A DNA stretch of 37,100 bases from an uncultured Bacilli bacterium (GTDB taxonomy: Bacteria; Bacillota_I; Bacilli_A; RF39; UBA660). Shown piece by piece: positions 3,656 through 35,936 of this stretch. Each line of letters opens with the position of its first letter. Position 1 is the first letter of the stretch. The notes beneath the pieces were generated by a model. That model had not been told where the DNA came from. It saw only the letters and a list, made by a program, of their open reading frames with translations, and ran no database searches. The translations under genes were made by a program, and so were the position numbers. The DNA is taken from contig CALVRE010000017.1 of assembly GCA_944358455.1 (NCBI GenBank), positions 1-37,100 of the forward strand. The letters run 5' to 3'.

Positions 3656-3670
3656 TAGATTGGTGATAGA

Positions 3671-4384: not shown

Positions 4385-4388
4385 ATCT

Positions 4389-4436
4389 AATCATCCTATA
4401 AAATTTAGTAAAAACTAAAAATTAGGATGATTTTTT
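4389..4436 (+). terminator. Terminator of the cargo operon
   Basis: AATCATCCTA (4389-4398) pairs with TAGGATGATT (4423-4432), with a second inner stem (TTTAGT/ACTAAA), followed by T residues. It starts five bases after the peptidase stop. Confidence 0.85.
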
Positions 4437-4700: not shown

Positions 4701-4708
4701 TGATGTGT

Positions 4709-4855: not shown

Positions 4856-4925
4856 ATAAGTTTATAAAAATGAAAGGATTAGATGATGAATATGAATATA
4901 ATGTTTTTTAAATTAATGGAGGTAT

Positions 4926-5024
4926 ATGATAATAAGTAATATTATTTATGAGTATGTTATAGGCATACCAAATAATATTACTAAAACAATGCTTATTGCC
5001 ATAGAATTTATTGGAGGTATATAA
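4926..5024 (+). CDS. Small hypothetical protein (32 aa)
   Basis: ATG at 4926 follows GGAGG (4918-4922) closely and the frame runs 32 codons to TAA at 5022. The peptide is hydrophobic (IISNIIYEYVIG, then MLIAIEFIGGI). An even shorter frame at 4883-4939 (18 codons, behind AAGGA) overlaps its start. Both sit between the RHH gene and the recombinase. The ribosome binding sites support translation, but no family is recognised; either could act as leader peptides coupling translation to the next frame. Confidence 0.4.
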   Translation: MIISNIIYEYVIGIPNNITKTMLIAIEFIGGI

Positions 5025-5029
5025 ACTCT

Positions 5030-5209
5030 ATGGTTAAATACAAAGTTAATTTAAAGTTTAAAGAAAATGGAAAATCTTTAAATGAAATAATTACTGAAGT
5101 ATTAAAAATTGAACTACAAAAGAAGATAAACGAGACTTGCAATATCTTAAAAAAGGAGCTAACATCTAATTATACTCATTATTCCCAAAGTGAAGGGAGT
5201 AGTAATTAA
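5030..5209 (+). CDS. Small basic protein preceding the recombinase
   Basis: A 59-residue frame below the length usually annotated. GGAGG at 5013-5017 precedes ATG 5030. The product is Lys- and Asn-rich with a helical core (SLNEIITEVLKIELQKK) and one Cys. Its stop overlaps the recombinase start (TAATG at 5207-5211), which indicates translational coupling. Small proteins directly ahead of serine integrases sometimes act as partners such as directionality factors; here that is only an inference from position. Confidence 0.6.
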   Translation: MVKYKVNLKFKENGKSLNEIITEVLKIELQKKINETCNILKKELTSNYTHYSQSEGSSN

Positions 5210-6774
5210 TGATAGGGAATAGTAGTTTTAAAGTGGGAATATATATAAGATTATCAAGAGATGATGGTAATTTAGAATCTGATAGTATTGTTAGTCAAAG
5301 AAGTTTACTTAATCAATATGTTAAAGAAAATAATTATAATCTTATAGAAGAATATGTTGATGATGGTTTTACTGGAACAAACTTTGAAAGACCATCATTT
5401 AAAAGAATGATTAAAGACATTGAATTTGGAAGAATTAATATGATAATTACTAAAGATATGTCTAGATTAGGTAGAGATTATATTGGTACAGGAGAGTTAA
5501 TTGAAAAGTATTTTCCAAATAAAAATGTTAGGTATATTGCTATTAATGATGGGATTGATACATTTATAGATAATACTAATAATGATATAGCACCTTTTAA
5601 AGCAATTATGAATGATATGTATGCTAAAGATATTTCTAAAAAAGTTAAAACAAGTTTGCATTCTAGAATGAAAGAAGGATTATATGTATCTGGAAGATGT
5701 CCTTTTGGATATATGAAAGATCCTAATAATAAAAACCATTTAGTTATAAATAAAGAACAAGCAGAAATTGTTAGATTAATCTTTGATTTAGCACTTAAAG
5801 GTAAAACATATCACTATATAGCACAATATCTTACCAAAAGAAAAATTAAAACTCCAGCATCTTATTATAATTATGTATGGAATACTAAGTGCATAAATAC
5901 CAATTGCATATCACAAGAATATGGTGTATGGGTTGATACCACTATAAAATCAATTTTAACTAATCAGATATATGTAGGAGATACAGTTCAAGGTAAGACT
6001 AAAAAGATTAATTATAAGTTGAAAAAGACAGTTAAAAATAAGCCAAATGATTTTATAATAGTGGAAAATACACATGAAGCAATTATTGATAAAGATACGT
6101 TTAATTATGTACAAATTTTATTACCTAAAAATGTTAAAAGGCCAGAAAAGAAAAGATTTTACTTATTAGATGGACTTTTATACTGTGGGGATTGCAAACA
6201 TCGTATAACTATTAGGTATCAAAATAAAACTGGTAGAAGTTATACTACTTGTGATTATTATAGAACATATTCAAAGTATCATGTATGTACAACACATACA
6301 AATAATTATGAAACACTAGAAAAAGTTATTTTAGATAATATCAGAGAAGTATGTAAAAGTTATTTAGATAAGAATAAAATAAAATATTCTATTGGTAATA
6401 TAAGTCCCATAGATAATACTTTAAAAATCAAAAAACAAATAGAGAGTCTAGAACTTAGTAATAATAAACTAACAGAAAACTTAGATAAAAACTATATGAA
6501 TATGCTAAAAGGTATTATTGATGAAGAACAATATATAAGAATAAGTGAAAATCTAAAACAAGAAATAGCAAATAATAAATCAAGTATTGATAATCTTAAA
6601 AATGAAAATAGTGAATCTAATAAAATAGACAAAAAACAAATAGAAAAATATATTAATGAATTTTTATCATTAGAAAACCCAACTAGAGAATTAATAATTA
6701 ATTTAATTGAAAAAATCTACATCTATCAAGATAAAACGATAGATATTATATTTACATTTGAAAATGTTACATAA
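5209..6774 (+). CDS. Large serine recombinase (integrase/excisionase)
   Basis: A 521-residue recombinase of the large serine family. The resolvase catalytic domain is N-terminal: GIYIRLSRDDG with the nucleophile Ser16, then the DGFTGTNFERPSFKRM and ITKDMSRLGRDY blocks. A recombinase domain follows, including SGRCPFGYMKDP. A zinc ribbon begins at C326-GD-C329 with later cysteines in TTCDYY and HVCTTH, and then a Lys/Glu/Asn-rich coiled-coil C-terminus (about 400-490). It should cut and rejoin the two attachment sites through a phosphoserine intermediate, inserting or removing the element. The gene ends ten bases from the right junction, and its reading frame is intact, so it may be active. Confidence 0.95.
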   Translation: MIGNSSFKVGIYIRLSRDDGNLESDSIVSQRSLLNQYVKENNYNLIEEYVDDGFTGTNFERPSFKRMIKDIEFGRINMIITKDMSRLGRDYIGTGELIEKYFPNKNVRYIAINDGIDTFIDNTNNDIAPFKAIMNDMYAKDISKKVKTSLHSRMKEGLYVSGRCPFGYMKDPNNKNHLVINKEQAEIVRLIFDLALKGKTYHYIAQYLTKRKIKTPASYYNYVWNTKCINTNCISQEYGVWVDTTIKSILTNQIYVGDTVQGKTKKINYKLKKTVKNKPNDFIIVENTHEAIIDKDTFNYVQILLPKNVKRPEKKRFYLLDGLLYCGDCKHRITIRYQNKTGRSYTTCDYYRTYSKYHVCTTHTNNYETLEKVILDNIREVCKSYLDKNKIKYSIGNISPIDNTLKIKKQIESLELSNNKLTENLDKNYMNMLKGIIDEEQYIRISENLKQEIANNKSSIDNLKNENSESNKIDKKQIEKYINEFLSLENPTRELIINLIEKIYIYQDKTIDIIFTFENVT

Positions 6775-6784
6775 AAAGTGTATC

Positions 6785-6792
6785 TGGGGATA
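6785..6792 (+). repeat. Right attachment core (attR)
   Basis: TGGGGATA, the same eight bases as 560-567, marking the right edge of the element. The host reading frame resumes with GGG at 6786. Confidence 0.85.
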
Positions 6793-7745
6793 GTTTATGG
6801 AGTATTGCGAAAAAGTTTAATGTAACAGTTGATATGTTAAAGGCAGCTAATAATTTGACGAACAATGCCATTACAGTAGGTCAAGTCTTGAAAATACCAA
6901 GTCCTGTAGAAGATCCAGATACAGGGGATTTCTTAGTTTATGTGGTCAAGAGTGGAGATAGTCTTTATAAGATTGCACAAAGCTATGGTACGACTGTTCA
7001 AGCCCTTATGAGCTATAATAATTTGAATAATACGACGTTGCAAGTTGGTCAACAAATTTTAATTCCAAGAAAAGATATTAATCAAGAACCATCGGATACA
7101 GAAGAAGATATTATCTATACGGTTCAGAGTGGAGATAGCCTATGGAGCATTGCCAATCGATATAATACGACGGTTAGTGAGTTACGCAATTATAATAATT
7201 TAACGAGTGATGTTCTACAAGTTGGTCAACAACTTAAGATTCCAAGAGGAAGTACTGTGACACCGCCAAACGATCAAGTAGATACACCAGTACCTAGTAT
7301 TACCTATACGGTTCAAACTGGGGATAGTCTTTATAAGATTGCGAATCGATACAATACGACAGTCGATGCGATAATGAAGGCCAATAATCTTACTAGTAAT
7401 TTGTTGCAGGTAGGTCAAGTATTGACAATACCTAGTAGTACGACATCGAGTGAGATTCGCTATGTTGTGCAAAATGGGGATAGTTTATGGAATATTGCCA
7501 ATCGTTATAATACGACCGTTGATGCGATAATGAAGGCCAATAATCTTACTAGTAATTTGTTGCAGGTAGGTCAAGTATTGACGATTCCTAGTAGTACGAC
7601 ATCGAGTGAGATTCGCTATGTCGTGCAAAATGGAGATAGTTTATGGAAGATTGCCAATCGTTATAATACAACAGTGAATGCGATCAAGGCTAAAAATAAT
7701 TTAACAAGTGATAATTTGACAATTGGTCAAGTGCTCTATATATAA
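6786..7745 (+). pseudogene. C-terminal LysM half of the interrupted amidase
   Basis: From GGG at 6786 this frame encodes the rest of the first LysM (GDSLWSIAKKF...) and five further LysM repeats, at about 6939, 7107, 7290, 7446 and 7602, each beginning with a Y-x-V-x-(S/T/N)GDSL motif and ending in a VGQxLxIP-like motif. LysM modules bind N-acetylglucosamine in peptidoglycan or chitin-like glycans. There is no ribosome binding site at the first ATG (6834), so this half is unlikely to be translated alone. Excision of the upstream element would place it in frame with the amidase, giving a six-LysM wall hydrolase of at least 495 residues. A terminator follows at once. Confidence 0.88.
7365..7656 (+). 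repeat. Near-identical 156-bp tandem repeats in LysM coding DNA
   Basis: Sequence from about 7365-7500 recurs almost unchanged 156 bases later at about 7521-7656 (for example GATGCGATAATGAAGG and CATCGAGTGAGATTCGC). Each unit encodes one LysM plus a Ser/Thr linker. Such identity suggests recent duplication and allows copy-number change by recombination. Confidence 0.8.
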
Positions 7746-9157: not shown

Positions 9158-10675
9158 ATGTTAGAAATTAAGAATTTATCAATCGAAGTAGATTTTCGAA
9201 CCATTGTAAAAGATTTCAATCTGATCGTTCATCCTGGTGATAAAGTTGCAATTATTGGGGAAGAAGGAAATGGGAAATCGACGTTACTGAAAGCGATTTA
9301 TGATACTCGTTTCGTTCCCTATGCCCGTGTGACGGGATCTATTCATCATAATCTTCGTATTGGTTATTTGGAACAGATGTTGCCAGATGATCTTTTGGAA
9401 AAACAAGTACAAGAGTATTTATTTTACAATCTTGATGATTATTATGATAAGGTATCATCTTTTTACCATTTTAGTAAACAGCTAGGATTAGATGATCATA
9501 TGTTAGAACAGCGGCTTCGTCATTTAAGTGGTGGAGAAAAAGTAAAAGTTCAAATATTAAAACTATTGTTGGATGATCCAGATATTTTACTTCTCGATGA
9601 ACCTACTAACGATTTAGATATCAAAACCTTAAATTGGCTGGAGCAGTTTATCAACACTACCAATAAACCAATTCTTTATGTATCTCATGATGAATATTTA
9701 TTGGAACATACAGCGAATGTGATCGTTCATTTAGAATTGATTCATAAAAAGATGGAAGCACGTAGTACGGTAAAACGGGTCGGCTATTTGCAATATGTAA
9801 GCGAAAGACTTTCTTGGATTCAGAAAGAAACGCAGGTTGCGAGAAAAGAAAAGCAAGTACGTGAAAAACAAGAGGCAAAATTAAATCAGATTAAAAATAA
9901 GGTGGAATACCAATTGCGTACGATCACTAGAAAAGATCCTCATGGAGCTCGGTTATTAAAGAAAAAAATGAAAAATGTAAAGGCCCAGGAGCGTCGTTTT
10001 GACCATCAAAGTGTCAAACAAGTTCCGGATGTAGAAGAAGCTATTTCTCTCTTTTTTGATGCTGTTTCGGTTCCTAAACAAAAAGAAATCTTAAAATTAA
10101 ATCTTGATGGATTAATGATAAATGGTAATGTTATTGCAAAATCAGTCAACTTGACAGTCAAAGGTCCAGAACATCTCGTTATCATAGGTGAGAATGGAGT
10201 TGGTAAGACAAGTCTCATGCGACTGATTTATGACCTTTTAAAGAACCGCCAAGATATAAAAGTGGGGTATATGCCTCAAAATTATGATGATATTTTGAAT
10301 AATGATGTGACTCCAATTCAATTCTTGGAAGTAACAGGTGATCAGGATGAAGTGAGCTTGCATCGAAGTTATCTAGGAAATCTTCGTTTTACTAAAGAGG
10401 AAATGATTAATCCGATTCGTGAATTAAGTGGAGGATCAAAAGCAAAATTAATTTTACTCAAATTGATTATCGAACAATGCAATGTGTTATTGTTAGATGA
10501 ACCAACACGTAATGTCAGTCCTTTAACTGGACCAGTAATTCGTCGCATGTTAAAAAATTATGGAGGAACGATTATTAGTGTGTCTCACGATCGCAAATAT
10601 ATAGAAGAAGCGATAGATCGTATATATGAATTAACCAAGAATGGATTAATGGAACGATTGGATAAGAATTTGTAG
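9158..10675 (+). CDS. ABC-F family ATPase (ribosome-acting type)
   Basis: A 505-residue soluble protein with two ATP-binding cassettes and no membrane segments. Cassette 1 has Walker A GEEGNGKST (about residues 35-43), signature LSGGEK and Walker B LLLDEPTND. Cassette 2 has GENGVGKTS, signature LSGGSK and LLLDEPTRN. A basic linker (RKEKQVREKQEAKLNQ..., about 225-290) joins them, as in the P-site tRNA interaction motif of ABC-F proteins. ABC-F members bind the ribosomal E site and either regulate translation or displace antibiotics. The second Walker B with RNVSPLTGP is typical of a subgroup near antibiotic-protection proteins. It stands alone between a leader and a terminator, which supports inducible expression. 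No specific drug class can be assigned. Confidence 0.9.
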   Translation: MLEIKNLSIEVDFRTIVKDFNLIVHPGDKVAIIGEEGNGKSTLLKAIYDTRFVPYARVTGSIHHNLRIGYLEQMLPDDLLEKQVQEYLFYNLDDYYDKVSSFYHFSKQLGLDDHMLEQRLRHLSGGEKVKVQILKLLLDDPDILLLDEPTNDLDIKTLNWLEQFINTTNKPILYVSHDEYLLEHTANVIVHLELIHKKMEARSTVKRVGYLQYVSERLSWIQKETQVARKEKQVREKQEAKLNQIKNKVEYQLRTITRKDPHGARLLKKKMKNVKAQERRFDHQSVKQVPDVEEAISLFFDAVSVPKQKEILKLNLDGLMINGNVIAKSVNLTVKGPEHLVIIGENGVGKTSLMRLIYDLLKNRQDIKVGYMPQNYDDILNNDVTPIQFLEVTGDQDEVSLHRSYLGNLRFTKEEMINPIRELSGGSKAKLILLKLIIEQCNVLLLDEPTRNVSPLTGPVIRRMLKNYGGTIISVSHDRKYIEEAIDRIYELTKNGLMERLDKNL

Positions 10676-10698
10676 GAACATAAAACAGATCATGATTG

Positions 10699-10733
10699 AA
10701 AGAGTTGCTATTAGAAACGCGCAACTCTTTTTT
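10699..10733 (+). terminator. Terminator after the ABC-F gene
   Basis: AAAGAGTTGC pairs with GCAACTCTTT, followed by T's. Confidence 0.9.
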
Positions 10734-10802
10734 GGAATGATAAAAGAAGATGTTGGAGTTATAAAAATAGGAAATTAACAGATATTAAAAATAGGTGATC
10801 GT

Positions 10803-11753
10803 ATGAATAAAGAAATTTATTTAGCGGGTGGTTGTTTTTGGGGATTAGAACAATATTTGAAAGCGATTGATGGTGTCATGACAACCGAAGTGGGATATGC
10901 GAATGGTAGAACGGAGAATCCTACTTATCATGAAGTTTGTAATGGAAGTGGTCATGTCGAAGTGGTAAAAGTGATTTATGATGCCCGAAAGTTATCTTTG
11001 GAAACACTTTTGAATCTTTACTATGATGTGATTGATCCTACATCGTTCCATAAACAAGGCAAAGATCGTGGAATTCAATATCGCACTGGAGTTTATTATA
11101 CAGATTCAAAAGATCGAGCGATTATTCAAAAGTCATTAGAACAGTTACAAGCTATCCATACAAAGACAGTTGTCGTAGAAAATCTTCCCTTGCTTAACTA
11201 TCACAAAGCAGAAGAATATCATCAGCGTTATTTAGAAAAGAATCCGGAAGGATATTGTCATATTAGTTCAGATAAAATTGATCGTGTAAAAAAAAGATTG
11301 GAAGATCCTTATTTGTATCAGAAGTTATCTAAAATCGATATACGAAAGAAATTGACACCAGAAGAATATCATGTGACACAAGAAAATGGTACAGAAATGC
11401 CGTTTCGTAATGATTATTTTGATCACTTCGAAAAAGGCATTTATGTCGATATTGTAACAGGAGAACCACTTTTTTTATCGACTGATAAGTATGATAGTGG
11501 ATGTGGGTGGCCAAGCTTTACAAAACCGATCGATCAAAATGTTGTCGATGAATATGTGGACTATTCTCATCATATGAGGCGAATTGAAGTAAGGAGTCAT
11601 ATTGGAAACTCTCATTTAGGACATGTTTTTAATGATGGTCCAAAGCATTCTGGAGGAAAACGTTATTGCATCAATAGTGCGGCTTTAAAGTTTATCCCTT
11701 ATGAACAAATGAAGGAAATGGGATACGAAAGCTATCAGTCAAAATTATATTAA
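10803..11753 (+). CDS. msrAB: Bifunctional methionine sulfoxide reductase MsrA-MsrB
   Basis: A 316-residue fusion that reduces both epimers of methionine sulfoxide and so repairs oxidised proteins. The MsrA domain comes first: [11 protein letters not shown] with the catalytic Cys11, then [17 protein letters not shown] and YHQRYLEKN. The MsrB domain starts near residue 175 ([15 protein letters not shown]), with SGCGWPSF and the [11 protein letters not shown]...RYCINSAAL block carrying the catalytic Cys. No signal peptide is present, so it is cytoplasmic. The MsrB Zn-binding CxxC pairs are absent, as in many Firmicutes. GGTG at 10795-10798 precedes the ATG. It appears to be a single-gene unit. 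Confidence 0.96.
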
Positions 11754-11770
11754 AAAATTACTTTAAACCC

Positions 11771-11799
11771 TTGTCACGAGAATACGATTCCTGTATATT
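11771..11799 (+). promoter_or_regulatory. Promoter of the ABC exporter operon
   Basis: TTGTCA (11771-11776) and TATATT (11794-11799), spaced 17 bp, 38 bases ahead of the ATPase ATG. Confidence 0.7.
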
Positions 11800-11836
11800 G
11801 AATATGTAGTTATGTGAGAGTAGGGTTAGAAATCAT

Positions 11837-12547
11837 ATGAATTTAGTAATAAACAATTTAAAGAAAAATTTTGAGAAAAAAGAAGTCTTAAAAGATATTA
11901 CCTTTACGTTTGAAAAGGGAAAAATTTATGGATTACTTGGGAGAAATGGAGCAGGGAAAACAACTCTTTTTAATGCATTAGCAAATGAGTTTGAAGTTGA
12001 TGGTGGCGAAATGTTTTTAATTGATGAAATGGGGAATAAAGAAACGTTATCGAGTGAAAATATTGGATATGTAATTTCGACTCCGGTTGTGCCGGAATTT
12101 TTGACAGGAAGAGAGTTTTTACGTTTTTTTATTGAGATTAATCAACATAAAATTAAGAATCTCAAAACGATCGATGAATATTTTGATTTTTTGAATATTG
12201 AAGTAGAAGATCGAGATCGTATTATGAAAGATTATTCTCACGGAATGAAAAATAAAATGCAGATGTTAGTGAATATCATTGCTAATCCCGAAGTATTGCT
12301 TTTAGACGAACCTCTCACATCCTTTGATGTAGTAGTGGCAGATGAAATGAAAAAAATGTTGAGGAAGATTAAAAAAGACCATATTTTAATTTTTTCTACT
12401 CACATTTTAGAATTGGCGACTGATCTTTGCGATGAAATCGTTATTTTACATAATGGTGTGTTGGAATCTGTTCAAAATGAAGATTTAAATAGTGCGGAAT
12501 TTAAAGAGAGAATCATTGATGTTTTGAAGGATGAGAATCATGATTAA
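11837..12547 (+). CDS. ABC transporter ATP-binding protein
   Basis: A 236-residue single ATPase domain. Walker A is LLGRNGAGKTT (about residues 33-43), the signature region is DYSHGMKNKMQ (a non-canonical SHGMK in place of LSGGQ, common in ABC-2 exporters), and Walker B is LLLDEPLTSFD, followed by the switch histidine in FSTH. It should power the membrane protein encoded immediately downstream, whose start overlaps this stop by eight bases. The substrate is unknown; ABC-2 type pairs of this kind export lipids, peptides or drugs. Confidence 0.92.
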   Translation: MNLVINNLKKNFEKKEVLKDITFTFEKGKIYGLLGRNGAGKTTLFNALANEFEVDGGEMFLIDEMGNKETLSSENIGYVISTPVVPEFLTGREFLRFFIEINQHKIKNLKTIDEYFDFLNIEVEDRDRIMKDYSHGMKNKMQMLVNIIANPEVLLLDEPLTSFDVVVADEMKKMLRKIKKDHILIFSTHILELATDLCDEIVILHNGVLESVQNEDLNSAEFKERIIDVLKDENHD

Positions 12548-26572: not shown

Positions 26573-26664
26573 TTGACAATTTCAAAAAAATGTATATAAT
26601 AATTGATAAATTATATGGAAGAATAGCCCTCAAGTGTTGTACATTATATAGAGCTTTGTATAAT
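26573..26664 (+). promoter_or_regulatory. Tandem promoters of the peptide-maturation operon
   Basis: P1: TTGACA (26573-26578), 16 bp, TATAAT (26595-26600). P2: TTGTAC (26637-26642), 16 bp, TATAAT (26659-26664). Both lie ahead of the peptide gene and leave leaders of roughly 125 and 60 bases. Confidence 0.7.
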
Positions 26665-26675
26665 TAATTGATATG

Positions 26676-26697
26676 AAATCATAAAATTTATGATTTT
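26676..26697 (+). promoter_or_regulatory. Palindrome in the operon leader
   Basis: AAATCATAAA next to TTTATGATTT gives a near-perfect 20-base palindrome between the second promoter and the peptide gene. It could be an operator or an RNA stem. Confidence 0.45.
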
Positions 26698-26726
26698 ATA
26701 TATAAATGAAGAAAGGGAGGGCACTT

Positions 26727-26819
26727 ATGAAAAAACAAGTAAAACCTACAATTACTGTTATTACAAAAAATAATGGTAATCAATCTTATATGGCTGTTGG
26801 TGTTTGTCACTGCAACTAG
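26727..26819 (+). CDS. Putative RiPP precursor peptide
   Basis: A 30-residue peptide starting MKKQVKPTITVITKNNG and ending MAVGVCHCN. A very strong ribosome binding site (GGGAGGG, 26715-26721) precedes it. The N-terminal part is polar and basic, like a leader; the C-terminal end has Gly, two Cys and one His, like a core. It is the first gene after two promoters and is followed by a hairpin and then by radical SAM enzymes, the standard layout of radical SAM-modified peptides. Its shortness recalls PqqA and MftA, where only a few residues become the product. No similarity to a named precursor family is recognised. Confidence 0.75.
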   Translation: MKKQVKPTITVITKNNGNQSYMAVGVCHCN

Positions 26820-26834
26820 TAAGATAGCTTTCTT

Positions 26835-26877
26835 TTGCATTGGCGATATTATTTCATATTGTCAATGCAATTTTTTT
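26835..26877 (+). terminator. Partial terminator/attenuator between precursor and enzymes
   Basis: TTGCATTG (26835-26842) pairs with CAATGCAA (26863-26870), the inner bases (GATAT/ATATT) extend the stem, and seven T's follow. It would let the peptide message exceed the enzyme message, as is common in RiPP operons. Confidence 0.8.
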
Positions 26878-26896
26878 AGAAATAAGAGGTATTATT

Positions 26897-28090
26897 ATGA
26901 AAGTATTTATTAATGATTCTATGGTTATTGTAAATAACAAATTTGAAAAAAGAATTTTTGTATACGATCGATTAAATAGAGTTGAGTATGAAATAAATGA
27001 TGATTGCTTCGATGTTATTTTTGATATAAAAAATAATGATTATGCATTAGAAGATTTGTATACGATGTATGATAAAGATTTTATCGATCAACTATTTGAA
27101 CTTGGAATATTAACTAACAATATCCAAAAAAATATCAATAATGTTAAAAAATTAGAAACATATAACAATGTTAGAATATTTGTTGAATTAACTAATAAGT
27201 GTAATTTGAAATGTAAACATTGTTATGGTGGCTTTGCTTGTACTAATAGTACCAATTTAAATATAGATGCTATAAAGCAGATGATAGATAATGCATCAAA
27301 AAATGGTGTTTATCAATTTGATATAACAGGTGGAGAACCAACTTTATATCCTTATTTAGAAGAAATAATGGAGTATGTATATAATGCCGGTATGCTTATG
27401 AGAATATTTACAAATTTAACAACATATAGTGAAAAATTCAAGGGCTTAATATTGAAATATGGGGTTAAAGACATAGTAACTAGCATAGATTCTTGTATAA
27501 AAGAGGACCACGAAGAATTTAGAGGACAAAAAGGATGTTTTGATAAAACACTAAATGCAATTAAAGAACTTCAAAAAGAAGATATAAGTATTTCTTTAAA
27601 TACGATGATTGGAAATCATAACAAAAAACATGTTAAAGAACTTGTAAATTTTATTGATGACCTAAAAGTTAAAAGTGTTTTAGATGTTATAGTCCCAGAG
27701 GGACGAGCTGCTGAACTGAATGAAGATATTAAAGAGTCGACACAGGTTATAAAAAGTATTTACGAAATGAATTCGAGTAAGATTGACAAAGATGCAATAT
27801 CTATAAGTTGTGGCGTAGGTAATAGGTTTATTTATGTTAAATCAGATGGAAACATATATTTATGTCCAAGTTTAATAAAAGGAGAATATAAATTAGGAAA
27901 TATAAGTAACTTTGATACTGTGAAAATTTGGAAATTGATGTCTGATAATTTTTCAAATCTAGGATGCTCGAAGAAAACTGAAAAATGTAAAAATTGTACA
28001 GGTGGTTGCAGAGCACGTGCTTTATTATTACATAATGACATTAATTTTCAAGATGATGTTTATTGTGTAATTAATGGGGTTGAGGAATAA
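26897..28090 (+). CDS. Radical SAM/SPASM peptide maturase with N-terminal recognition domain
   Basis: A 397-residue enzyme. Residues 1-85 look like a PqqD-type RiPP recognition element (strand-rich start, then YALEDLYTMYDKDFIDQL and ELGILTN). The radical SAM core has the [4Fe-4S] motif C102-NLK-C106-KH-C109 and the SAM-binding TGGEP (144-148). The C-terminal SPASM region has CGVGNRF, IYLCPSL, then C-x6-C-x2-C-x3-C (CSKKTEKCKNCTGGC) and a final YC, ligands for auxiliary clusters. Such enzymes install C-S, C-C or C-O bonds or epimerise residues in precursor peptides. ATG 26897 is preceded by AAGAGG; the frame stays open further upstream through a hairpin, but no start is supported there. Expected substrate: the peptide at 26727. 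Confidence 0.9.
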   Translation: MKVFINDSMVIVNNKFEKRIFVYDRLNRVEYEINDDCFDVIFDIKNNDYALEDLYTMYDKDFIDQLFELGILTNNIQKNINNVKKLETYNNVRIFVELTNKCNLKCKHCYGGFACTNSTNLNIDAIKQMIDNASKNGVYQFDITGGEPTLYPYLEEIMEYVYNAGMLMRIFTNLTTYSEKFKGLILKYGVKDIVTSIDSCIKEDHEEFRGQKGCFDKTLNAIKELQKEDISISLNTMIGNHNKKHVKELVNFIDDLKVKSVLDVIVPEGRAAELNEDIKESTQVIKSIYEMNSSKIDKDAISISCGVGNRFIYVKSDGNIYLCPSLIKGEYKLGNISNFDTVKIWKLMSDNFSNLGCSKKTEKCKNCTGGCRARALLLHNDINFQDDVYCVINGVEE

Positions 28091-28905
28091 TGAGAAAATA
28101 TTTAAGTATGGAAAATGCAACATTAGAAATGAATTTTTCATCATTAGATGATTATTATAGTGTTGTTGATAATAACATAAATGAAATTTTATTGCAAAAT
28201 TTTAAAAGAATTATTTTTCATATATCTGAATTGGATTTGGATAAGTTTATTAATGCTGTAAACTCTCAATTAAAAAACATAGAACCTTTGATAATGATTA
28301 ATTCTTTTATAACATCGCCTAATATTGAATTAAAACTACCTAATAATTTTGTTATAGTTAATACTAACGAGAATAATATTTTAAATGTTGAAGGTGTATA
28401 CAATTCAGTCAAATTTACTACAGAAACTAAAGACTTGATCGTTTCTAATATAAGTAAAAATTTAATAATTGAACCTGTAATAGATGTTGATAATATTTCT
28501 ACTGAAATGGAAAATTTGAATGACTTATTTAATGAAATAATTGATAATGACATAAATCTAGGTGGATTTATGCTATCAAGTTTTATAATGAGAGAACATC
28601 CTTGTAACGCTTATTTATGCAATGGATGGAAATGTAAGAAAAGAATAAGTGGATTGCCTAAACATATTTATATTAATGAGAAAATGGATGTTTATCCACA
28701 CGATTTGTTTTATAAAGTATTTTATATAGGAAACACGAAAAACAAAAAAATAGATACTTTATTAGAAGAATATTATATGAGTAGAGAATATAATAACTTC
28801 ATTGATTATTGCAAAAAGGTTTTTATTAAATATTTATCTAAATATCCTTATGAGTTAGTACCTTTAATAGAATATATAAAATTGGAAGTGTCAAAGGATG
28901 AATAA
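28090..28905 (+). CDS. SPASM-like protein lacking the radical SAM motif
   Basis: A 271-residue protein with no CxxxCxxC motif. The C-terminal half has C172-x4-C177-x4-C182 (HPCNAYLCNGWKCKK), then KHIYINEKMDVYPHDLFYKV and YIGNTK, which follow the order of a SPASM/twitch domain (I-x-P-D-G-x-V-x-P-C ... IGN), with His204 where the Cys usually is. It may be a degenerate radical SAM protein that binds substrate or a partner, like the accessory maturases of some RiPP systems (for example the CXXX-repeat type). Its start codon overlaps the previous stop (TAATG), so the two are translated together. Confidence 0.6.
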   Translation: MRKYLSMENATLEMNFSSLDDYYSVVDNNINEILLQNFKRIIFHISELDLDKFINAVNSQLKNIEPLIMINSFITSPNIELKLPNNFVIVNTNENNILNVEGVYNSVKFTTETKDLIVSNISKNLIIEPVIDVDNISTEMENLNDLFNEIIDNDINLGGFMLSSFIMREHPCNAYLCNGWKCKKRISGLPKHIYINEKMDVYPHDLFYKVFYIGNTKNKKIDTLLEEYYMSREYNNFIDYCKKVFIKYLSKYPYELVPLIEYIKLEVSKDE

Positions 28906-29815
28906 TAAAGCAAATATAATTTTGACGCACAATTGTAATTTAAAGTGTTTACATTGTTATATCGATGCAAAGGCTTGCAAGGAAGACTTAGAAAAGAATT
29001 ATAATAAGACGATTGAATTAATTGACAAATTAGAAAAAGATAATTTTAAACAAATTATGTTTACTGGTGGAGAATGTTTAATGTTTCCTAAAATAGTTGA
29101 CTTAATAAAATATGCAAAGTCGAAAAATATGATTGTATCAATTTTTACAAATGGTATGATTTTTAAACAAGAAGTGTTAGATTTGGTTGATATGGTAAAT
29201 ATAAGTGTTGATGGACCAGATAATATACATAATTATATTAGACAAAATGAAAATTCATATAATAATATTATAAAAGTTTTAGATTATTTAAATTCAATAG
29301 ATAAGTATACAATATTACAAATGACTATAAATAATTTTAATTATAATAATTTAGATTATTTGGTGGATTTAACATTGTCGCATTTAAATGTAAGAACAGT
29401 GAAGATTGCTTGTGTCATAGATGATGGACGAGCTAAAGAAAATAGCATTTATCTTGATAAGGAAATGTTAGAAAATGTATATGCCAAGATGGATAATTTA
29501 TATGAAAAAACAAAATATCATATCCAATTTGTTACTAGCTTATATAATAAGTATGATTTTGAAAATTATTGTTTAAATGAAAAAATGATGTTTCCAATTT
29601 GGTTTGATATTCCAAATGAAAAATATTATCTTTTAAATGATAAATTATCTACTAATTACGATTTAAATAAGTATGAATTTAAAAATATTCAAAAGGACAA
29701 TTTATTATATAAAAATATATTAAAAGAAAATAAAGAAATAATTGAAAGAGAAAATTATATTGATATAGAAAAATCTTTATTTGAGTTGATAGGGGGAAAT
29801 AGAAATGAAGAATAA
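28898..29815 (+). CDS. Second radical SAM enzyme without SPASM cysteines
   Basis: A 305-residue radical SAM protein. The cluster motif C13-NLK-C17-LH-C20 is at the very N-terminus (NIILTHNCNLKCLHCY), with TGGE at 56-59, FTNGM and SVDGPDNIH in the barrel. After about residue 215 the sequence keeps the outline of a C-terminal domain (FENYCLNEKMM, YYLLNDKLS) but lacks clustered cysteines, so no auxiliary clusters are expected. There is no N-terminal recognition domain, so it may depend on the other maturase or the SPASM-like protein to reach the peptide. It overlaps the preceding gene by eight bases and the GTPase gene by eleven. Confidence 0.88.
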   Translation: MNNKANIILTHNCNLKCLHCYIDAKACKEDLEKNYNKTIELIDKLEKDNFKQIMFTGGECLMFPKIVDLIKYAKSKNMIVSIFTNGMIFKQEVLDLVDMVNISVDGPDNIHNYIRQNENSYNNIIKVLDYLNSIDKYTILQMTINNFNYNNLDYLVDLTLSHLNVRTVKIACVIDDGRAKENSIYLDKEMLENVYAKMDNLYEKTKYHIQFVTSLYNKYDFENYCLNEKMMFPIWFDIPNEKYYLLNDKLSTNYDLNKYEFKNIQKDNLLYKNILKENKEIIERENYIDIEKSLFELIGGNRNEE

Positions 29816-31754
29816 TGTTATGACATTAGGTATATTTGCACATGCTAATGCTGGTAAAACTACAATTACTGAACAGTTGTTATATCACACTAATGTAAAG
29901 AATAATCGTGGACGAGTTGATCACGGTGACACAACAACAGATAATTTAAAAGTAGAACGTGAAAGAGGAATTTCTGTTAGAGCATCTATGGTAACTTTAC
30001 CTTTAAATGATAGAATTGTTCAATTAATAGATACACCTGGACACGTCGATTTTTCAGCTGAAGTTGAAAGAGCAATTAGTGTTTTAGATGGTGCAATATT
30101 AGTTGTTTCAGGAGTTGAAGGTGTAGAACCACAAACACAAGTAATATGGAAAATTTTGCAAGAACGAAATGTTCCAACTTTAATATTTGTCAATAAGATG
30201 GATAGAATTGGTGCTGATTATGATCGAACTATTCGTGAATTGCAGTCAAAGTTGAGTGAGAATATATTTCCTATAGTAGATGTAAAAAAAGATAATGCTA
30301 CTAACGAATTATCTTATACCGATATTAAACCAGAATACATTATAGAAGATTTAGCAAATATAGATGACCATATATTAGAAAAATATTTAACAGAGGATAA
30401 AATTTCAAGAGAGTGGTTAAACGAGCAAATTACAGGTTTAGTTCATAGTGGAAATTTACATTTTGTATATGGTGGAAGTGCTTTATTAGATGGTGGTATA
30501 ATTAGATTAATAAGTGGAATAGAAAAATATTTGCCAATTTCTAAAAGCAAAGAAGTTGACTATTTTTCTGGGTATGTTTATACAGTTAAAAGAGAAAATA
30601 ATGTAAGAGAATTATATGTTAAAGTATTAAATGGAAAATTAGAAAACAGACAAGAATTTGTCGATGAATATGGTAATAAGCAAAGAATAAGGACTGTTAC
30701 TAAATTAAATGGTTCAAAAAGAGAAAAAGCTGATGAGATAGTTGCTGGTGAAATAGGTATTATTACAGGACTTAATGCTAAATGTGGTGATATTATAGGA
30801 ATCGATGATGGCACATTTAAAACGACTTCATTTGTAAATCCTTTATTTCATACAACTGTAAGCATTGATGACCTAACCAAAATTAATGAATTAGCAACAG
30901 CTTTGAAAATATTAAATGATGAAGATCCTGATTTACATTTACAATATAATAGGTCTACAGGACAAATGAGTATCGACTTAATGGGAAATCTTCAAGCAGA
31001 AATTATAGGTAATTTATTACAAGAAAGATTTAATTTAAATGTGTCATTCTCAAATCCAATAATAATACATAAAGAGACACCTGTTTCAATAGGAGTAGGT
31101 GGAGCAAGTTTTGATAGAGTTTCAAGTGTCAAATTCGAAATAAGACCATTACCGTTAGGAAGTGGATTACAATATAAATCTTTAGTTTCTACTGATTATT
31201 TATTCGCTAAATATCAAAAGCAAATAGAGAGATTAGTTAAAATGTATTCGAAACAAGGTTTATATGGTTGGGAAGTTACTGATGCTGAAATAACATTGAT
31301 AGATGGGAAAAGTGATTCTGTATGTTCAGATCCATCACATTATAATGTAGTTGTTCCAATGGCTTTAATGAGAAGTATCAAAGATGCTCAAATGCAATTA
31401 TTAGAACCTGTTATGGAATATGAAATAACAGTTCCTGAAGAGTATTATAAAAGGGTAATTTCAGCAACTTCATCTATGGGAGTACAATATGATAAAATAT
31501 ATCAAAAAAATGATAATTTTATAATACCTGGCGAAGCACCATTAAGTGGAATGATTGATTTTCCAACAGTTATAGCAAGACTAACTGGTGGCCACGGAAG
31601 TATGATTAGAAAACCAAATGGATTTATTTTAAAAAAAGATTCAGAGATCATTGAATGTGATTATATTGGACCAGATCCAAGAAATGAAACTTTATTTTTA
31701 ATGGATATGAATAGTAGTGTTGAGCATATTGATAGACCATCTAAAAGGAGGTAA
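29805..31754 (+). CDS. Tet(M)-like ribosomal-protection/translation GTPase
   Basis: A 649-residue EF-G-like GTPase, the length of Tet(M)/Tet(O). G-domain motifs are AHANAGKTT (G1, 12-20), DTPGH (G3, 76-80) and NKMD (G4, 130-133). The C-terminal half follows Tet(M) closely in order, including GLYGWEVTD (485-493) and ELLEP-like QLLEP (531-535). The domain IV tip, which in Tet(M) carries S-P-V and reaches the decoding centre, here reads SDSVCSDP (503-510). The C-terminal tail is also different (EHIDRPSKRR). It should bind the ribosome next to the A site. In this operon it may confer self-resistance to the product or be its target. Tetracycline resistance cannot be assumed. Confidence 0.9.
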   Translation: MKNNVMTLGIFAHANAGKTTITEQLLYHTNVKNNRGRVDHGDTTTDNLKVERERGISVRASMVTLPLNDRIVQLIDTPGHVDFSAEVERAISVLDGAILVVSGVEGVEPQTQVIWKILQERNVPTLIFVNKMDRIGADYDRTIRELQSKLSENIFPIVDVKKDNATNELSYTDIKPEYIIEDLANIDDHILEKYLTEDKISREWLNEQITGLVHSGNLHFVYGGSALLDGGIIRLISGIEKYLPISKSKEVDYFSGYVYTVKRENNVRELYVKVLNGKLENRQEFVDEYGNKQRIRTVTKLNGSKREKADEIVAGEIGIITGLNAKCGDIIGIDDGTFKTTSFVNPLFHTTVSIDDLTKINELATALKILNDEDPDLHLQYNRSTGQMSIDLMGNLQAEIIGNLLQERFNLNVSFSNPIIIHKETPVSIGVGGASFDRVSSVKFEIRPLPLGSGLQYKSLVSTDYLFAKYQKQIERLVKMYSKQGLYGWEVTDAEITLIDGKSDSVCSDPSHYNVVVPMALMRSIKDAQMQLLEPVMEYEITVPEEYYKRVISATSSMGVQYDKIYQKNDNFIIPGEAPLSGMIDFPTVIARLTGGHGSMIRKPNGFILKKDSEIIECDYIGPDPRNETLFLMDMNSSVEHIDRPSKRR

Positions 31755-31759
31755 TATAA

Positions 31760-32887
31760 ATGCTTGATTCAAGACTAAAAAAAGTTGCAGATACTGTTCT
31801 TGACTATTCATTATCTATAAAGTTGGGTGATAGGGTTTTGATAGAGACTACTAAAAATTGTAGTGATATATTAAAATATATGATTCAAAAGATATCTGAA
31901 AAAGGTGCAATACCATTTGTTATGCTTAATGAAACTGATATAAAAAGAGAATTGATTAAAAATGGTACTATTGAACAATTCCAATTGATGAGAAAGCATA
32001 CTGAATCTATATTAGAAAATGTCGATGTCTATATTAATATGATTGATTCTGATAATTGCTATGATATGTCAGATGTCCCATCGAATAAAAAATCTTTGTA
32101 TCAACAATATTATTTTAAACCAATTTATTTTGAGATTATAGTTCCAAAATTACGTTGGATTACAGTGGATTATCCATCGGTTTCATCGGCGCAACAATTT
32201 GGTATGAGCACAGAAGCTTATGAAAATTATTTTTTTCAAGCTATGACTACTGATTATAAAATATTAGAAGAAAAAATGTTGGTATTAAAAGAATTACTAG
32301 ATAGAGGACAACATATACAAATATTGTCACCAACGATTGATTTTGAATTTAATATTAAACAATGTAAGTCCGCGATTTGTAGTGGTAAAATCAATTTACC
32401 TGATGGAGAAATACTTATTGCTCCAGATTTATATAGTGCTAATGGTCACATTTTATTTAACGTACCCACTAGATATCAAGGAAATGATTTTCAAGATTTA
32501 TTTTTAAGATTTGAAAATGGCCGTGTAATTGAATATAATGCTAGATATAATATTGAAAAGTTAAAACAAATTCTTGAATCTGATGAGGGAAATAAATATA
32601 TTGGTGAATTCGCCTTTGGTACTAATCCTAATATTGAGGTTCCTCGAAGTAATATTTTATTTGATGAAAAGATATTAGGATCATTTCATATTGCGTTGGG
32701 AAATAGTCACAATTTAAGTGATAATGGTAATAGAGCATCAATTCATTGGGATATTGTTAATATGATGACATTGGAATATAATGGTGGTAAAATAATAATA
32801 GATGATGAATTGATTCAAGAAAATGGAATTTTTGTTCCTAAATCATTACAGCCATTGAATAAAGTGAAAAAATTAGAAAGGAATTAG
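31760..32887 (+). CDS. M29-family metallo-aminopeptidase
   Basis: A 375-residue peptidase of the thermophilic aminopeptidase family (AmpS/AmpT type). Candidate metal ligands are all present: E217 (LPDGEI), E283 (IGEFAFGTN), H310 (SFHIALG), and H329 with D331 (SIHWDI). The 66-residue interval between the two glutamates matches the family. It acts on free N-termini, probably in the cytoplasm. Being five bases after the GTPase gene inside the peptide operon, it could trim the leader from the modified precursor, as proteases do in PQQ and mycofactocin pathways. It may instead be a general peptidase captured by the operon. Confidence 0.88.
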   Translation: MLDSRLKKVADTVLDYSLSIKLGDRVLIETTKNCSDILKYMIQKISEKGAIPFVMLNETDIKRELIKNGTIEQFQLMRKHTESILENVDVYINMIDSDNCYDMSDVPSNKKSLYQQYYFKPIYFEIIVPKLRWITVDYPSVSSAQQFGMSTEAYENYFFQAMTTDYKILEEKMLVLKELLDRGQHIQILSPTIDFEFNIKQCKSAICSGKINLPDGEILIAPDLYSANGHILFNVPTRYQGNDFQDLFLRFENGRVIEYNARYNIEKLKQILESDEGNKYIGEFAFGTNPNIEVPRSNILFDEKILGSFHIALGNSHNLSDNGNRASIHWDIVNMMTLEYNGGKIIIDDELIQENGIFVPKSLQPLNKVKKLERN

Positions 32888-32890
32888 ACT

Positions 32891-33364
32891 ATGGATATTA
32901 CATTAAAGGAAATTGAATTAGAAAAAAAAGACATATTAGATAATTTAATGCAATTATATATGCATAATATTAGTCTGAACTTTCCAATGGATTTTGATTC
33001 GAATACAGGTATGTATGGATATGATAATATTGAAAAATATTTTGAAAATGATAATAATAAAGCATTTTTTATATTAAAAGACAATGAAATCGCTGGTTTT
33101 ATGTTAATCGATTTATTAGATGAAAAAAATATTGTTCAGGAACTGTTTGTATTAAATAATTATAAAAGAAAAGGTGTAGGAAAAACAGCTGTAAGTATAT
33201 TATTCGATAAGTTTAAAGGAAATTGGGAAATAAAATCATTACCTTGCTCTGAAAATGCTGAAAAATTTTGGATATCTTCAGTTAAAAAATACACAAACGA
33301 TAAATTTAATTTAGAATATGTAGGTAAATTTAATAGAGCTGTTTTAACATTTAATAATGATTAA
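32891..33364 (+). CDS. GNAT-family N-acetyltransferase
   Basis: A 157-residue acetyltransferase. The acyl-CoA site is visible as VQELFVLNNYKRKGVGKTAV (about residues 80-99, the Q/R-x-x-G-x-G/A loop), preceded by beta strands FFILKDNEIAGFMLID. It follows the aminopeptidase by three bases and overlaps the next gene by eight. In the pathway it may acetylate an amine exposed after leader removal, either to finish the product or to inactivate it as self-protection. No closer subfamily is recognised. Confidence 0.85.
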   Translation: MDITLKEIELEKKDILDNLMQLYMHNISLNFPMDFDSNTGMYGYDNIEKYFENDNNKAFFILKDNEIAGFMLIDLLDEKNIVQELFVLNNYKRKGVGKTAVSILFDKFKGNWEIKSLPCSENAEKFWISSVKKYTNDKFNLEYVGKFNRAVLTFNND

Positions 33365-34568
33365 TTTAGAGAATTATAAAAAAAGAAAACTAAAAGAGCT
33401 TTCTATACTTAATGAATACATAGGTAATAAGATATATTTATCAAACTGTGATACTGAAAAAGACATATTAGAATATAAGAACTTAATTATAAAACATTTG
33501 CGAAATGATAATCGTGAAAAATTTTATCATCATTTAACTAATAATAATCAGATTAATTTTCAAAATGAATTATTTGATTATCATTATACTTATGAAAGAT
33601 TCAATGGATTCATTAAAGTAGATAAATTTGCTAATAGGTTTTACAATTTATCGAATCAAATTTTTAGTGAGACATATTTTACCAATTGTGGTATGACAGC
33701 AATAGTTTCTTTATTAACTTCTATGGGTTTAATGAGTGATGTTTCTATAGATTTATTATATGAAGAAACATATTTTGAAACAATTAAATATTTGTCTGTT
33801 GTTAATAATGGTATCAAATACAAAGCATTATATATTGATACAATTGCTTCAGATTTTTCGTTTGAAATTGATAAAGAATTGTTATCTAATTATAGTTATA
33901 TAATCATAGATACTACTTGTTTTTTAGGAAATGAGTTTAATAATATGATTCATTTTATTCTTAAACAAAACATTCCTTGTATACTAGTAAGAAGTCATAC
34001 AAAGTTAGATTTGATTGGCACTGAATATTCACATATGGGATCAGTTTCATTTATTAAACCAAACAAAATAGAAAAAATCGTAGAGGAAAATTTAGAAAAT
34101 ATTGAGTCTAGTTGTAAACATTTAATTGGTGTATATGGAGCTTGTTTAATACCAGAAAATTTTCCACCTTTCTTTTTAAACAACGAAATTAAATCACTTA
34201 ACAAAGAAAGAATAAAAATAGTGTCAAACAATACAACGGATTTTTGTGATATTTTGAAGAAAAATAATATAGATTATCAATTACCTAATCATAAACAATT
34301 TTGCTTAATTTATTTAGGTAAACAAGATATTAAATTAGAAGATTTAAAAATCCAAATTATAAATTTTTGTAATAAACTTAACTTTAATGGATATAATGTT
34401 TATCACGCTGTTAGTTTTGGTTTCGATTATATTGCTGTTGATTGCTATCAAAACTTTATTGATGGAACGTTTAAAATTAGGGTTTGTTTAAATGATGGAC
34501 CTATAGAAAATGTTCATAAATTTTCAGATGAATTTTTAAAGTTCTTAAAAAATCAAAAATTAATATAA
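33357..34568 (+). CDS. PLP-dependent fold-type I enzyme
   Basis: A 403-residue protein with the pattern of fold-type I PLP enzymes: TNCGMTAIVSLL (phosphate-binding loop, about 109-120), IIIDTTC with D185 for the pyridine nitrogen, and VRSHTKLDLIG with K216 as the Schiff-base lysine. The small C-terminal domain is present (NGYNVYHAVSFGFDYIAVD). The family is too broad to give a reaction: transamination, C-S lyase or decarboxylase chemistry are all possible. As the last gene of the coupled set (8-base overlap with the GNAT gene), it may process a residue or fragment freed from the peptide. Confidence 0.7.
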   Translation: MINLENYKKRKLKELSILNEYIGNKIYLSNCDTEKDILEYKNLIIKHLRNDNREKFYHHLTNNNQINFQNELFDYHYTYERFNGFIKVDKFANRFYNLSNQIFSETYFTNCGMTAIVSLLTSMGLMSDVSIDLLYEETYFETIKYLSVVNNGIKYKALYIDTIASDFSFEIDKELLSNYSYIIIDTTCFLGNEFNNMIHFILKQNIPCILVRSHTKLDLIGTEYSHMGSVSFIKPNKIEKIVEENLENIESSCKHLIGVYGACLIPENFPPFFLNNEIKSLNKERIKIVSNNTTDFCDILKKNNIDYQLPNHKQFCLIYLGKQDIKLEDLKIQIINFCNKLNFNGYNVYHAVSFGFDYIAVDCYQNFIDGTFKIRVCLNDGPIENVHKFSDEFLKFLKNQKLI

Positions 34569-34596
34569 ATATTTATATTGCAGTATGTAATAGTGA

Positions 34597-35207
34597 AAAT
34601 GTATTTATTGATAATGTTAAAAAATTGATTTAATTTTTGAAGATGATGTACAAACTTATTTAAAATATAATAATTATTATTATGTAACTGCATATAAACA
34701 TAATTTTCCAAAATACCCATCCCTAGCTGGAAAATATGAAGGACTATATCAAAATTTAGATTTTGCATATTTAAAAGATATGGCAATTATTGATTATAGA
34801 ATCAGATTACTATTGGTTAAGATGATAATTGATATTGAACTTTATTTAAAAATAAAATAGAAGAAATCGAAGATGAGAATGGGTATAGAATAGTTAATTT
34901 GTATTTGGAAAAAGACTTCAATGATGAAAAGTTTTCTAAAAGCGTTCATAATAGTATTTCTAAAAAAGTAGGTAATGAATATTATCAAAAAATATTTTCT
35001 AAATATGATGTTGATAAAGATAGAAAGTTAGAAAATATACCAATATGGAAATTCCTTGAAATTATTACATTTGTCGAATTAGTTAATTTCTATGATTTTT
35101 ACACTAAAGAATATAATTTAGTGGATCAAAATAGAGATGTATATATATTAAGAGATATTGCGAAACTAAGAAATGCTGTTGCACATAATACATGTATATT
35201 AAGTTAG
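34597..35207 (+). pseudogene. Broken Abi_2-family (abortive infection) gene
   Basis: Fragments of one Abi_2-type protein lie in different frames. After FIDNVKKLI, a stop (TAA near 34630) breaks the frame. The next piece (34639-34860) reads FEDDVQTYLKYNNYYYVTAYK, then NLDFAYLKDMAIIDYRIRLLLVKMIIDIELYLK before a stop. A frame change in the A-rich run near 34850 leads to 34860-35207, ending with IWKFLEIITFVELVN and LRDIAKLRNAVAHNTCILS. The LLxxIE helix and the RNxxAHN ending are typical of AbiD/AbiF proteins. At least two lesions make it non-functional. The intact ancestor would have been a phage-defence gene. Confidence 0.75.
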
Positions 35208-35257
35208 TTAAATAAGAAGACAATGTTTATCCTACATTATACAAAACTCTACAATAT

Positions 35258-35406
35258 ATGGATGATAGCGAATTCCTTTGCTTGCCCGGAGGTATGTAAA
35301 ACTAAGTGAAACAACAGAGCTTGCAGTTAAACGTGAATTGTTAGAAAAAGTAGGAAAAACGTTTGATATTAGTAAATATTTAGGTGTAGTAGAAATTACT
35401 TTATAA
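35258..35406 (+). pseudogene. Frameshifted Nudix hydrolase remnant
   Basis: DSEFLCLPGG is read in one frame (from 35258) and VKLSETTELAVKRELLEKVG in another. Joined, they give a Nudix box: GG, five residues, E, seven residues, RE-LL-E-K-V-G. The frame then runs through TFDISKYLGVVEITL to TAA at 35404. The 5' part is missing and a frameshift lies just after the GG. A dead gene fragment. Confidence 0.65.
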
Positions 35407-35422
35407 ATAAATATTCAAAAAA

Positions 35423-35572
35423 ATGCATTATTATTTAATGAGTTCTATAGAAAATATAGATACTAATAATTTTACTATTATTGAAAATGATATTAGATCT
35501 AGTTTTCTTAAACAAATTTTAGAAAGTGAAAATCTTGAATTTAATCATTTAATTTTTAATGAGTTAGATTAA
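35423..35572 (+). pseudogene. Short gene remnant after the Nudix fragment
   Basis: A 49-codon frame (MHYYLMSSIENIDTNN... to FNELD) without a good ribosome binding site. It may be the C-terminal part of the same decayed gene as the Nudix fragment, or of another. No domain is recognised. Confidence 0.3.
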
Positions 35573-35936
35573 GTACATTACTATTTATAATAAAAAATGA
35601 TAATTATTTAAAACTTAAAAAGATTTTAATATTTATAGATAGAAATCTTTAGATTATCAATTCAAGTGATATAGTTACTATGAAAGGTATAAGCTTTTTA
35701 GAGAAAAATAGTAATTGAACTATATATATATAAAATATTTTGGGATTTTATACCTGTTTAAAATATTACCTAATTTAATATTTTTTTAGATTTTCCTTAA
35801 TTATATTTAATTTTCTTTAATATAATTTAAACAAAAAAGGTTGAAAAATAAGGGGGAAATGAAGTTATAAAATAAAAAGTGACTAAATAACTTCGCACTC
35901 GTGAAGTGACGCTTGAGAAACATTTATCTTTACATT
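35573..35936 (+). other. Gene-free AT-rich right edge of the island
   Basis: No credible gene. The stretch holds TA runs, similar words ATTTTCCTTAATTATATTTA and ATTTTCTTTAATATAATTTA side by side (about 35788-35827), and a short imperfect stem around ACTTCGCACTCGTGAAGT (about 35889-35907). The island probably ends in this stretch. Confidence 0.4.

Follow-up and report, generated by a model that had tools for sequence, protein, structure and literature searches.

Several described systems resemble parts of the locus examined here. The pathways for mycofactocin and pyrroloquinoline quinone (PQQ) start from a short precursor whose product lies near the C terminus, and they employ a radical S-adenosylmethionine (SAM)/SPASM enzyme that has either a recognition region at its N terminus or a partner protein, together with a peptidase that frees the small product. 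Clusters of the sactipeptide, ranthipeptide and triceptide type also use radical SAM/SPASM maturases, on ribosomal peptides whose Cys or aromatic residues are conserved. Tet(M), Tet(O), TetB(P) and OtrA are five-domain GTPases resembling EF-G, and self-resistance by such ribosomal protection proteins (RPPs) inside antibiotic clusters is established for otrA (oxytetracycline) and ctcC (chlortetracycline) (PMC6804068). Here we describe a locus in a window of 37,100 nucleotides (the whole stretch of DNA that was analysed; contig CALVRE010000017.1, positions 1 to 37,100) from an uncultured Bacilli bacterium with a small genome (assembly GCA_944358455.1, 1.17 Mb). A compact operon of eight genes, all on the + strand, spans 26573-34568 of this window and encodes a short peptide, two radical SAM enzymes (rSAM1 and rSAM2), a partner protein, a GTPase for which the RPPs named above are the closest known kin, an M29-family aminopeptidase, a GNAT acyltransferase and a pyridoxal phosphate (PLP) enzyme. 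It is very probably a new pathway for a ribosomally synthesized and post-translationally modified peptide (RiPP).

Each of these likenesses ends at a definite point. Unlike the mycofactocin and PQQ pathways, the window operon has two radical SAM enzymes and a partner without a SAM motif, its core is Cys-His-Cys where theirs is Val-Tyr or Glu-Tyr, its peptidase is of family M29 in place of MftE or PqqFG, and nothing there corresponds to its GTPase, its GNAT or its PLP enzyme. In contrast to the sactipeptide, ranthipeptide and triceptide clusters, its peptide matches no known precursor family, a transporter is absent, and genes for an M29 peptidase, a PLP enzyme and a GTPase are present. The GTPase falls in a clade separate from the tetracycline RPPs, with a shortened loop I and a different loop III in domain IV, and it goes with a peptide pathway in place of a polyketide one. 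The original prediction, made from the sequence, knew of no described pathway with this gene set; no paper describing it was found in the open-access literature, and no NCBIfam RiPP family matched. The operon reads as promoter, peptide, terminator-like hairpin and seven closely packed enzyme-side genes, as follows.

26573..26600, + strand: promoter TTGACA-16-TATAAT, matching at 12/12 positions, the sole perfect match within the region
26727..26819 (stop included), + strand: precursor peptide of 30 residues, MKKQVKPTITVITKNNGNQSYMAVGVCHCN, with Shine-Dalgarno site GGGAGG and homologous peptides at the equivalent place in loci L011, L012 and L157
26835..26870, + strand: terminator-like hairpin and T run, separating the peptide gene from the enzyme genes (15 pairs, z -3.5)
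26897..28090, + strand: rSAM1, with an N-terminal domain of ~85 residues, radical SAM core CNLKCKHC and a 7-Cys SPASM C-terminus (PF04055 1.9e-20, PF13186 1.1e-6)
28090..28905, + strand: partner protein without CxxxCxxC, with a predicted alpha/beta (TIM-like) N-terminal part and a Cys-rich C-terminus HPCNxYLCxGWKC (homologues 35-37% identical)
28898..29815, + strand: rSAM2, with radical SAM core (CNLKCLHC, GGE) and no SPASM (PF04055 2.5e-17)
29805..31754, + strand: EF-G/ribosome-protection-type GTPase with domains I-V and intact G motifs (profile searches, tree, alignment)
31760..32887, + strand: M29-family aminopeptidase (PF02073 1.5e-45)
32891..33364, + strand: GNAT acyltransferase (PF00583 2.8e-7)
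33357..34568, + strand: fold-type I PLP enzyme with D185 and K216 (in RSHTKLD) invariant (model pLDDT 91.8; Foldseek)

The families and reading frames of the eight genes are as originally predicted, save for two labels on the rSAM1 and partner proteins that are taken up below. The tight spacing claimed from the first radical SAM gene onward is borne out: rSAM1 and the partner overlap by 1 base, the partner and rSAM2 by 8, rSAM2 and the GTPase by 11, and GNAT and the PLP enzyme by 8, with gaps of 5 bases between GTPase and M29 and 3 bases between M29 and GNAT. The operon also forms an AT-rich island, as had been said, with 25.3% G+C against 33-34% in the flanks. The -35 box of the sigma-70 promoter begins at 26573, which is where the predicted pathway had been made to start.

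Homologous loci were reached through the PLP enzyme, whose conserved-motif alignment was scanned against 84,980 species; searches with single proteins, in 40 relatives and then in 392 genomes from the same phylum, returned the window itself as the sole match. The two best PLP-motif matches, L011 (uncultured Firmicutes) and L012 (Clostridia, goat cecum), both from small genomes, carry the entire gene set. In both of them the GTPase gene precedes the peptide, while in the window it follows rSAM2 as the fourth enzyme, and since the GTPase leads the operon at L011 and L012 the set is conserved though its order is not. The fourth locus, L157 in genome G650 (Bacilli, the window's own family), has peptide, rSAM1, partner, rSAM2 and GTPase in window order, with two extra genes between rSAM1 and partner (10682-12023) for a 73-residue protein and a third radical SAM/SPASM enzyme, the best match of which is the mycofactocin maturase, below the cut-off. 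Peptide, both radical SAM enzymes, partner and GTPase co-occur in 4/4 loci, and M29, GNAT and PLP enzyme in 3/3 loci not cut by a contig end. The neighbourhood search that had been proposed as a check of the prediction has therefore found conserved co-occurrence, with the whole set at L011 and L012 and its first half at L157. These loci span two distant families of Bacillota, in both of which the pathway is rare: it occurs in 2/243 sampled genomes of the window's family and in 2/172 sampled genomes of the L011/L012 family, the latter being L011 and L012 themselves. Where viral contigs and phage records yielded any match, it was a generic radical SAM enzyme or, in one case, an alphaproteobacterial PLP homologue.

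The precursor peptide carries much of the case for a RiPP. Its site GGGAGG ends six bases 5' of the ATG at 26727; an alternative ATG at 26706, offered by the open reading frame (ORF) finder, was set aside as a start, having no Shine-Dalgarno site of this kind. The homologous precursors are MEQKLTPTITVVATNDSQAKMAVGTCHCN at L011, MEQKVTPTITVVATNDSQAKMAVGTCHCN at L012 and MKGKKVVKPTITKVKCDSKQFMAVASCHCSA at L157. Alignment of the four shows M1, PTIT, MAV and CHC to be invariant, giving the pattern PTIT...MAV[GA]xCHC, and the window peptide ends in Cys-His-Cys-Asn. In 5.37 million six-frame residues from all collected loci, only these four precursors combine PTIT with a C-terminal CxC no more than 40 residues away. 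This restriction, and the presence of a homologue directly 5' of an rSAM1 homologue in four different genomes, argue that the peptide is not a chance ORF. Peptide pairs between loci differ at both synonymous and non-synonymous codons, so that the CHC core is preserved and the middle part drifts. A short ribosomal precursor conserved beside modifying enzymes, an arrangement expected of a RiPP pathway, is accordingly found in four genomes. The claim of a candidate new RiPP-type pathway stands on this co-occurring gene set and the conserved C-terminal Cys-His-Cys, and homologous operons without such a peptide, which would have spoken against it, did not appear, all four loci carrying one. The last residues vary between N and SA (Ser-Ala in L157), so chemistry of the microcin C type on a C-terminal Asn is unlikely; adenylation of this residue was dropped as a candidate reaction, the operon having no ThiF/MccB gene and the C terminus not being conserved. 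Hairpins equivalent to that of the window are found at L011, L012, L157 and at two further loci described below, L013 and L014 (z -3.6 to -4.8), and the structure is likely a partial terminator that would keep the peptide in excess over the enzymes.

With a CxxxCxxC motif and a SPASM domain, rSAM1 has the features of a radical SAM/SPASM maturase, and it is 48-49% identical to its homologues at L011, L012 and L157; rSAM2 is 42-46% identical to those at L011 and L012. The earlier description of rSAM1 as an enzyme joining a RiPP recognition element (RRE) to radical SAM and SPASM domains holds for the latter two (PF04055, PF13186), while the RRE has no statistical match. The partner protein had been called SPASM-like. 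Its three Cys in HPCNxYLCxGWKC are invariant among the four homologues and its tail locally resembles the rSAM1 SPASM region by a weak profile match (E 0.0016, probability 16%), but no Pfam SPASM is detected in any of the four, and the protein has no match in Pfam, NCBIfam or PDB. Its structure model was too weak for a fold assignment. From these motifs it resembles a SAM-less, pseudo-SAM-like protein with a putative SPASM-type tail. Among the RiPP and maturase families of NCBIfam neither radical SAM enzyme reaches a cut-off, the best full-protein score being 114 bits against a cut-off of 500, and the match to the mycofactocin maturase (MftC) 102 bits against 265. These scores bear on the idea that the end product is a larger modified peptide of the sactipeptide, ranthipeptide or triceptide type, an ordinary bacteriocin on which M29, GNAT and PLP enzyme decorate the N terminus. 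Sacti- and ranthipeptides typically combine radical SAM/SPASM enzymes with cores that contain Cys, and His-Cys-Asn and His-Cys-Ser agree with the three-residue pattern of some cyclophane-forming enzymes; yet neither enzyme attains the cut-off of any listed maturase family, exporter and leader-peptide transporter are both absent, and such a bacteriocin would not need the GTPase, so that we regard this alternative as quite improbable.

The remaining enzymes would fit a smaller product. M29 shows the highest conservation in the set (62-63% identity) and is the candidate for leader removal, its substrate being putative. GNAT is 45% and the PLP enzyme 46-47% identical to the proteins of L011 and L012. 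For the PLP enzyme there is no family in Pfam or NCBIfam, and its label in the original prediction is confirmed by its fold: the model (pLDDT 91.8) finds fold-type I proteins as its nearest neighbours in Foldseek, namely methionine gamma-lyase and 8-amino-7-oxononanoate synthase (AONS), at E 1e-8, TM-score ~0.5 and 8-14% identity, and D185 and K216 are invariant across 34 homologues. GNAT and PLP enzyme together would suit a small product bearing an amine. Most PLP homologues (L003, L004, L015-L090) are lone genes annotated as hypothetical in Bradyrhizobium and relatives; they were considered as a guide to the pathway and set aside, showing no conserved neighbour and no conserved precursor-like small ORF. 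In a metagenome-assembled genome of Bdellovibrionota a PLP homologue (L032:9180-10648) comes immediately after genes for a PqqD (PF05402) protein, an ABC transporter and an HPr-kinase-like protein, possibly another peptide cluster using this PLP family. At L012 a gene for an M16-family peptidase (10644-11861) overlaps the end of the PLP gene; M16 peptidases take off leaders in some RiPP pathways.

The next two PLP-motif matches, L013 and L014 (Bacilli), encode a PLP homologue of 32-33% identity within a different operon.

L013:5327-11924 and L014:123-6683: second short-peptide operon

Its order is a 29-residue peptide, hairpin, dikinase-like protein, ThiF-type adenylyltransferase, Orn/DAP-type decarboxylase, PLP enzyme and family-5 binding protein (SBP_bac_5); the peptide is MIKFIKSLFFKKLDKNDLELLAICETHRS or a close variant, with core LAICETHRS. 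PLP enzymes near ThiF-type RiPP genes have been noted before (PMC12250964). Among ThiF-type clusters (microcin C, enterofaecin type), those of L013 and L014 share with the window operon a homologous PLP enzyme and the layout of peptide, hairpin and enzymes; the window operon differs in lacking a ThiF gene, in using radical SAM enzymes and in its unconserved C-terminal Asn. This PLP family, for which Pfam has no entry, is thus also found in ThiF-type peptide clusters, and its occurrence in two kinds of short-peptide operon suggests a substrate feature shared by both, perhaps a freed residue containing Cys or His. A ribosomal-protection-like ABC-F gene, which passes its cut-off, lies 12 bases further on at L013, where L014 has a recombinase; as a member of the cluster it is putative and unproven, its position being seen in L013 alone.

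The GTPase suggests where the product might act. Its P-loop, DTPGH and NKxD motifs are all intact, and it is 39% identical to the homologues at L011 and L012. In a tree of EF-Gs, tetracycline RPPs and RPP-like proteins from 151 genomes of L012's order, the GTPases of the pathway fall into a single clade (100/100) that lies far from EF-G and has the Tet(O)/TetB(P) group as its sister. Each genome encodes a separate normal EF-G elsewhere. It would be a simple matter if the gene were a passenger tetracycline-resistance determinant caught in the operon, since it lies within the RPP superfamily (NF012153, E 6.5e-159). Its score of 530 bits nevertheless remains under the curated cut-off of 775, identity to Tet(O) and TetB(P) is 31-35%, loop I of domain IV is shortened, loop III reads SDSVCSDPSHY against YYSPVSTPADF in Tet(O) and lacks the YSPVSTPAD motif, and the gene stays in 4/4 operons, at two different positions and within one clade. 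Such a passenger is highly improbable, and the separate clade and different domain IV tip make tetracycline determinants unlikely. The tip argues against tetracycline as the ligand, and another ligand near the same site is left open. An immunity role fits a protein of the RPP superfamily that remains with the pathway in two gene orders. The predicted action of the product at the ribosomal decoding region, with a Tet(M)-like GTPase as immunity, stays hypothetical: superfamily and co-occurrence of the GTPase speak for immunity, and the missing Tet(M)/Tet(O) loop, an orphan clade member and the lack of an exporter speak against it.

The analysis establishes the gene set, the conserved peptide, their co-occurrence in more than one gene order, the fold of the PLP enzyme, the families of the other enzymes and the kinship of the GTPase. 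In the scheme that we propose, every chemical step, the product with its target and the role of the GTPase are what we infer. The strong promoter would yield peptide in excess and the hairpin would pass part of the transcription on to the enzymes. The maturases would recognise the leader half with its conserved PTIT, and rSAM1 and rSAM2, aided by the SAM-less Cys-rich partner, would put radical modifications into the core MAV[GA]xCHC, most likely cross-links or oxidation involving Cys and His. The M29 aminopeptidase may then remove residues at the N-terminal end until a short modified peptide or a single modified residue is left, on whose freed alpha-amine the PLP enzyme would act before GNAT acylates it. 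The final small molecule would act on translation, with the GTPase shielding the ribosomes of the producer as OtrA does in the oxytetracycline cluster. On balance we lean slightly towards a RiPP-derived product acting on translation with the GTPase as its immunity factor; more tentatively, we put forward a new class of translation inhibitor, with a Cys-His-Cys core that would be rebuilt by both radical SAM enzymes and the SAM-less partner, freed by the aminopeptidase, finished by PLP enzyme and GNAT, and cleared from the ribosome by the GTPase. We know of no other RiPP pathway with a ribosome-protection GTPase of EF-G type as immunity factor, and the window operon would be the first. If the scheme is true, gut-type bacteria with small genomes would make a new family of natural products derived from peptides, the protection gene inside the operon would indicate the ribosome as target, a guarding role of ribosome-protection GTPases against compounds besides tetracyclines would be suggested, and radical remodelling of Cys-His-Cys followed by PLP chemistry and acyl transfer would be a combination not described together before.

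Several observations weigh against this scheme. The loci total just four, mostly or all from metagenome assemblies and in two families. At L157 the contig stops within the GTPase gene, and a search of the rest of the G650 assembly found no PLP homologue. Residues 1-85 of rSAM1 have the place and size of a PqqD-like RRE domain, with no match to PDB or to a PqqD protein. The immunity role is read from kinship and co-occurrence, the domain IV tip loops are so unlike those of tetracycline RPPs that the ligand is not readable from sequence, and the pathway clade includes one orphan GTPase, in G958, outside any such operon and in a genome where no rSAM1 homologue was found. No exporter is present in any of the four operon copies. 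This absence from every locus would agree with an intracellular cofactor, metallophore or signal comparable to PQQ or mycofactocin, the GTPase being either an accessory of translation or a neighbour inherited along with the pathway. The combination of a short precursor with a SPASM enzyme and a peptidase does resemble the mycofactocin/PQQ layout, the mycofactocin maturase is among the matches of rSAM1 and of the extra L157 enzyme (far under cut-off), and a Cys-His-Cys core could bind metal; the operons, however, hold no dehydrogenase or other cofactor user, known cofactor pathways give a ribosome-protection GTPase no role, and the sporadic, AT-rich operon is unlike housekeeping cofactor genes. 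We consider such a product unlikely. The orphan clade GTPase, at L181:242-2194, has the motif FAHANAGKTT. Its gene stands at the end of a contig, in a genome that lacks rSAM1, and is preceded by a stretch resembling a hairpin in its 5' region.

The missing exporter and the AT-rich, sporadic context could also be those of an anti-phage or defence system, in which an intracellular translation poison is made from the peptide and the GTPase serves as safety factor, and an AbiD-like (Abi_2) remnant 330 bases downstream would suit it. Against this, the PADLOC matches of the operon genes amount to generic radical SAM likeness to viperin and one weak LeoA, the Abi_2 gene is not seen at the other loci and a sensor gene is absent, which leaves a defence role very unlikely for an operon that we read as a RiPP pathway. 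The Abi_2/AbiD-like fragment (34899-35207) lies in a degenerate region (34569-35600) right 3' of the operon. At the other end of the window, an AT-rich element (596-6834) with a large serine recombinase gene (5209-6774) separates an amidase gene (33-596) from a LysM-repeat ORF (6834-7745), and these two resemble the parts of a single cell-wall amidase gene that the insertion has interrupted. A RhuM-family gene at 2678-3655 is spread over two frames (2678-3064 and 3083-3655).

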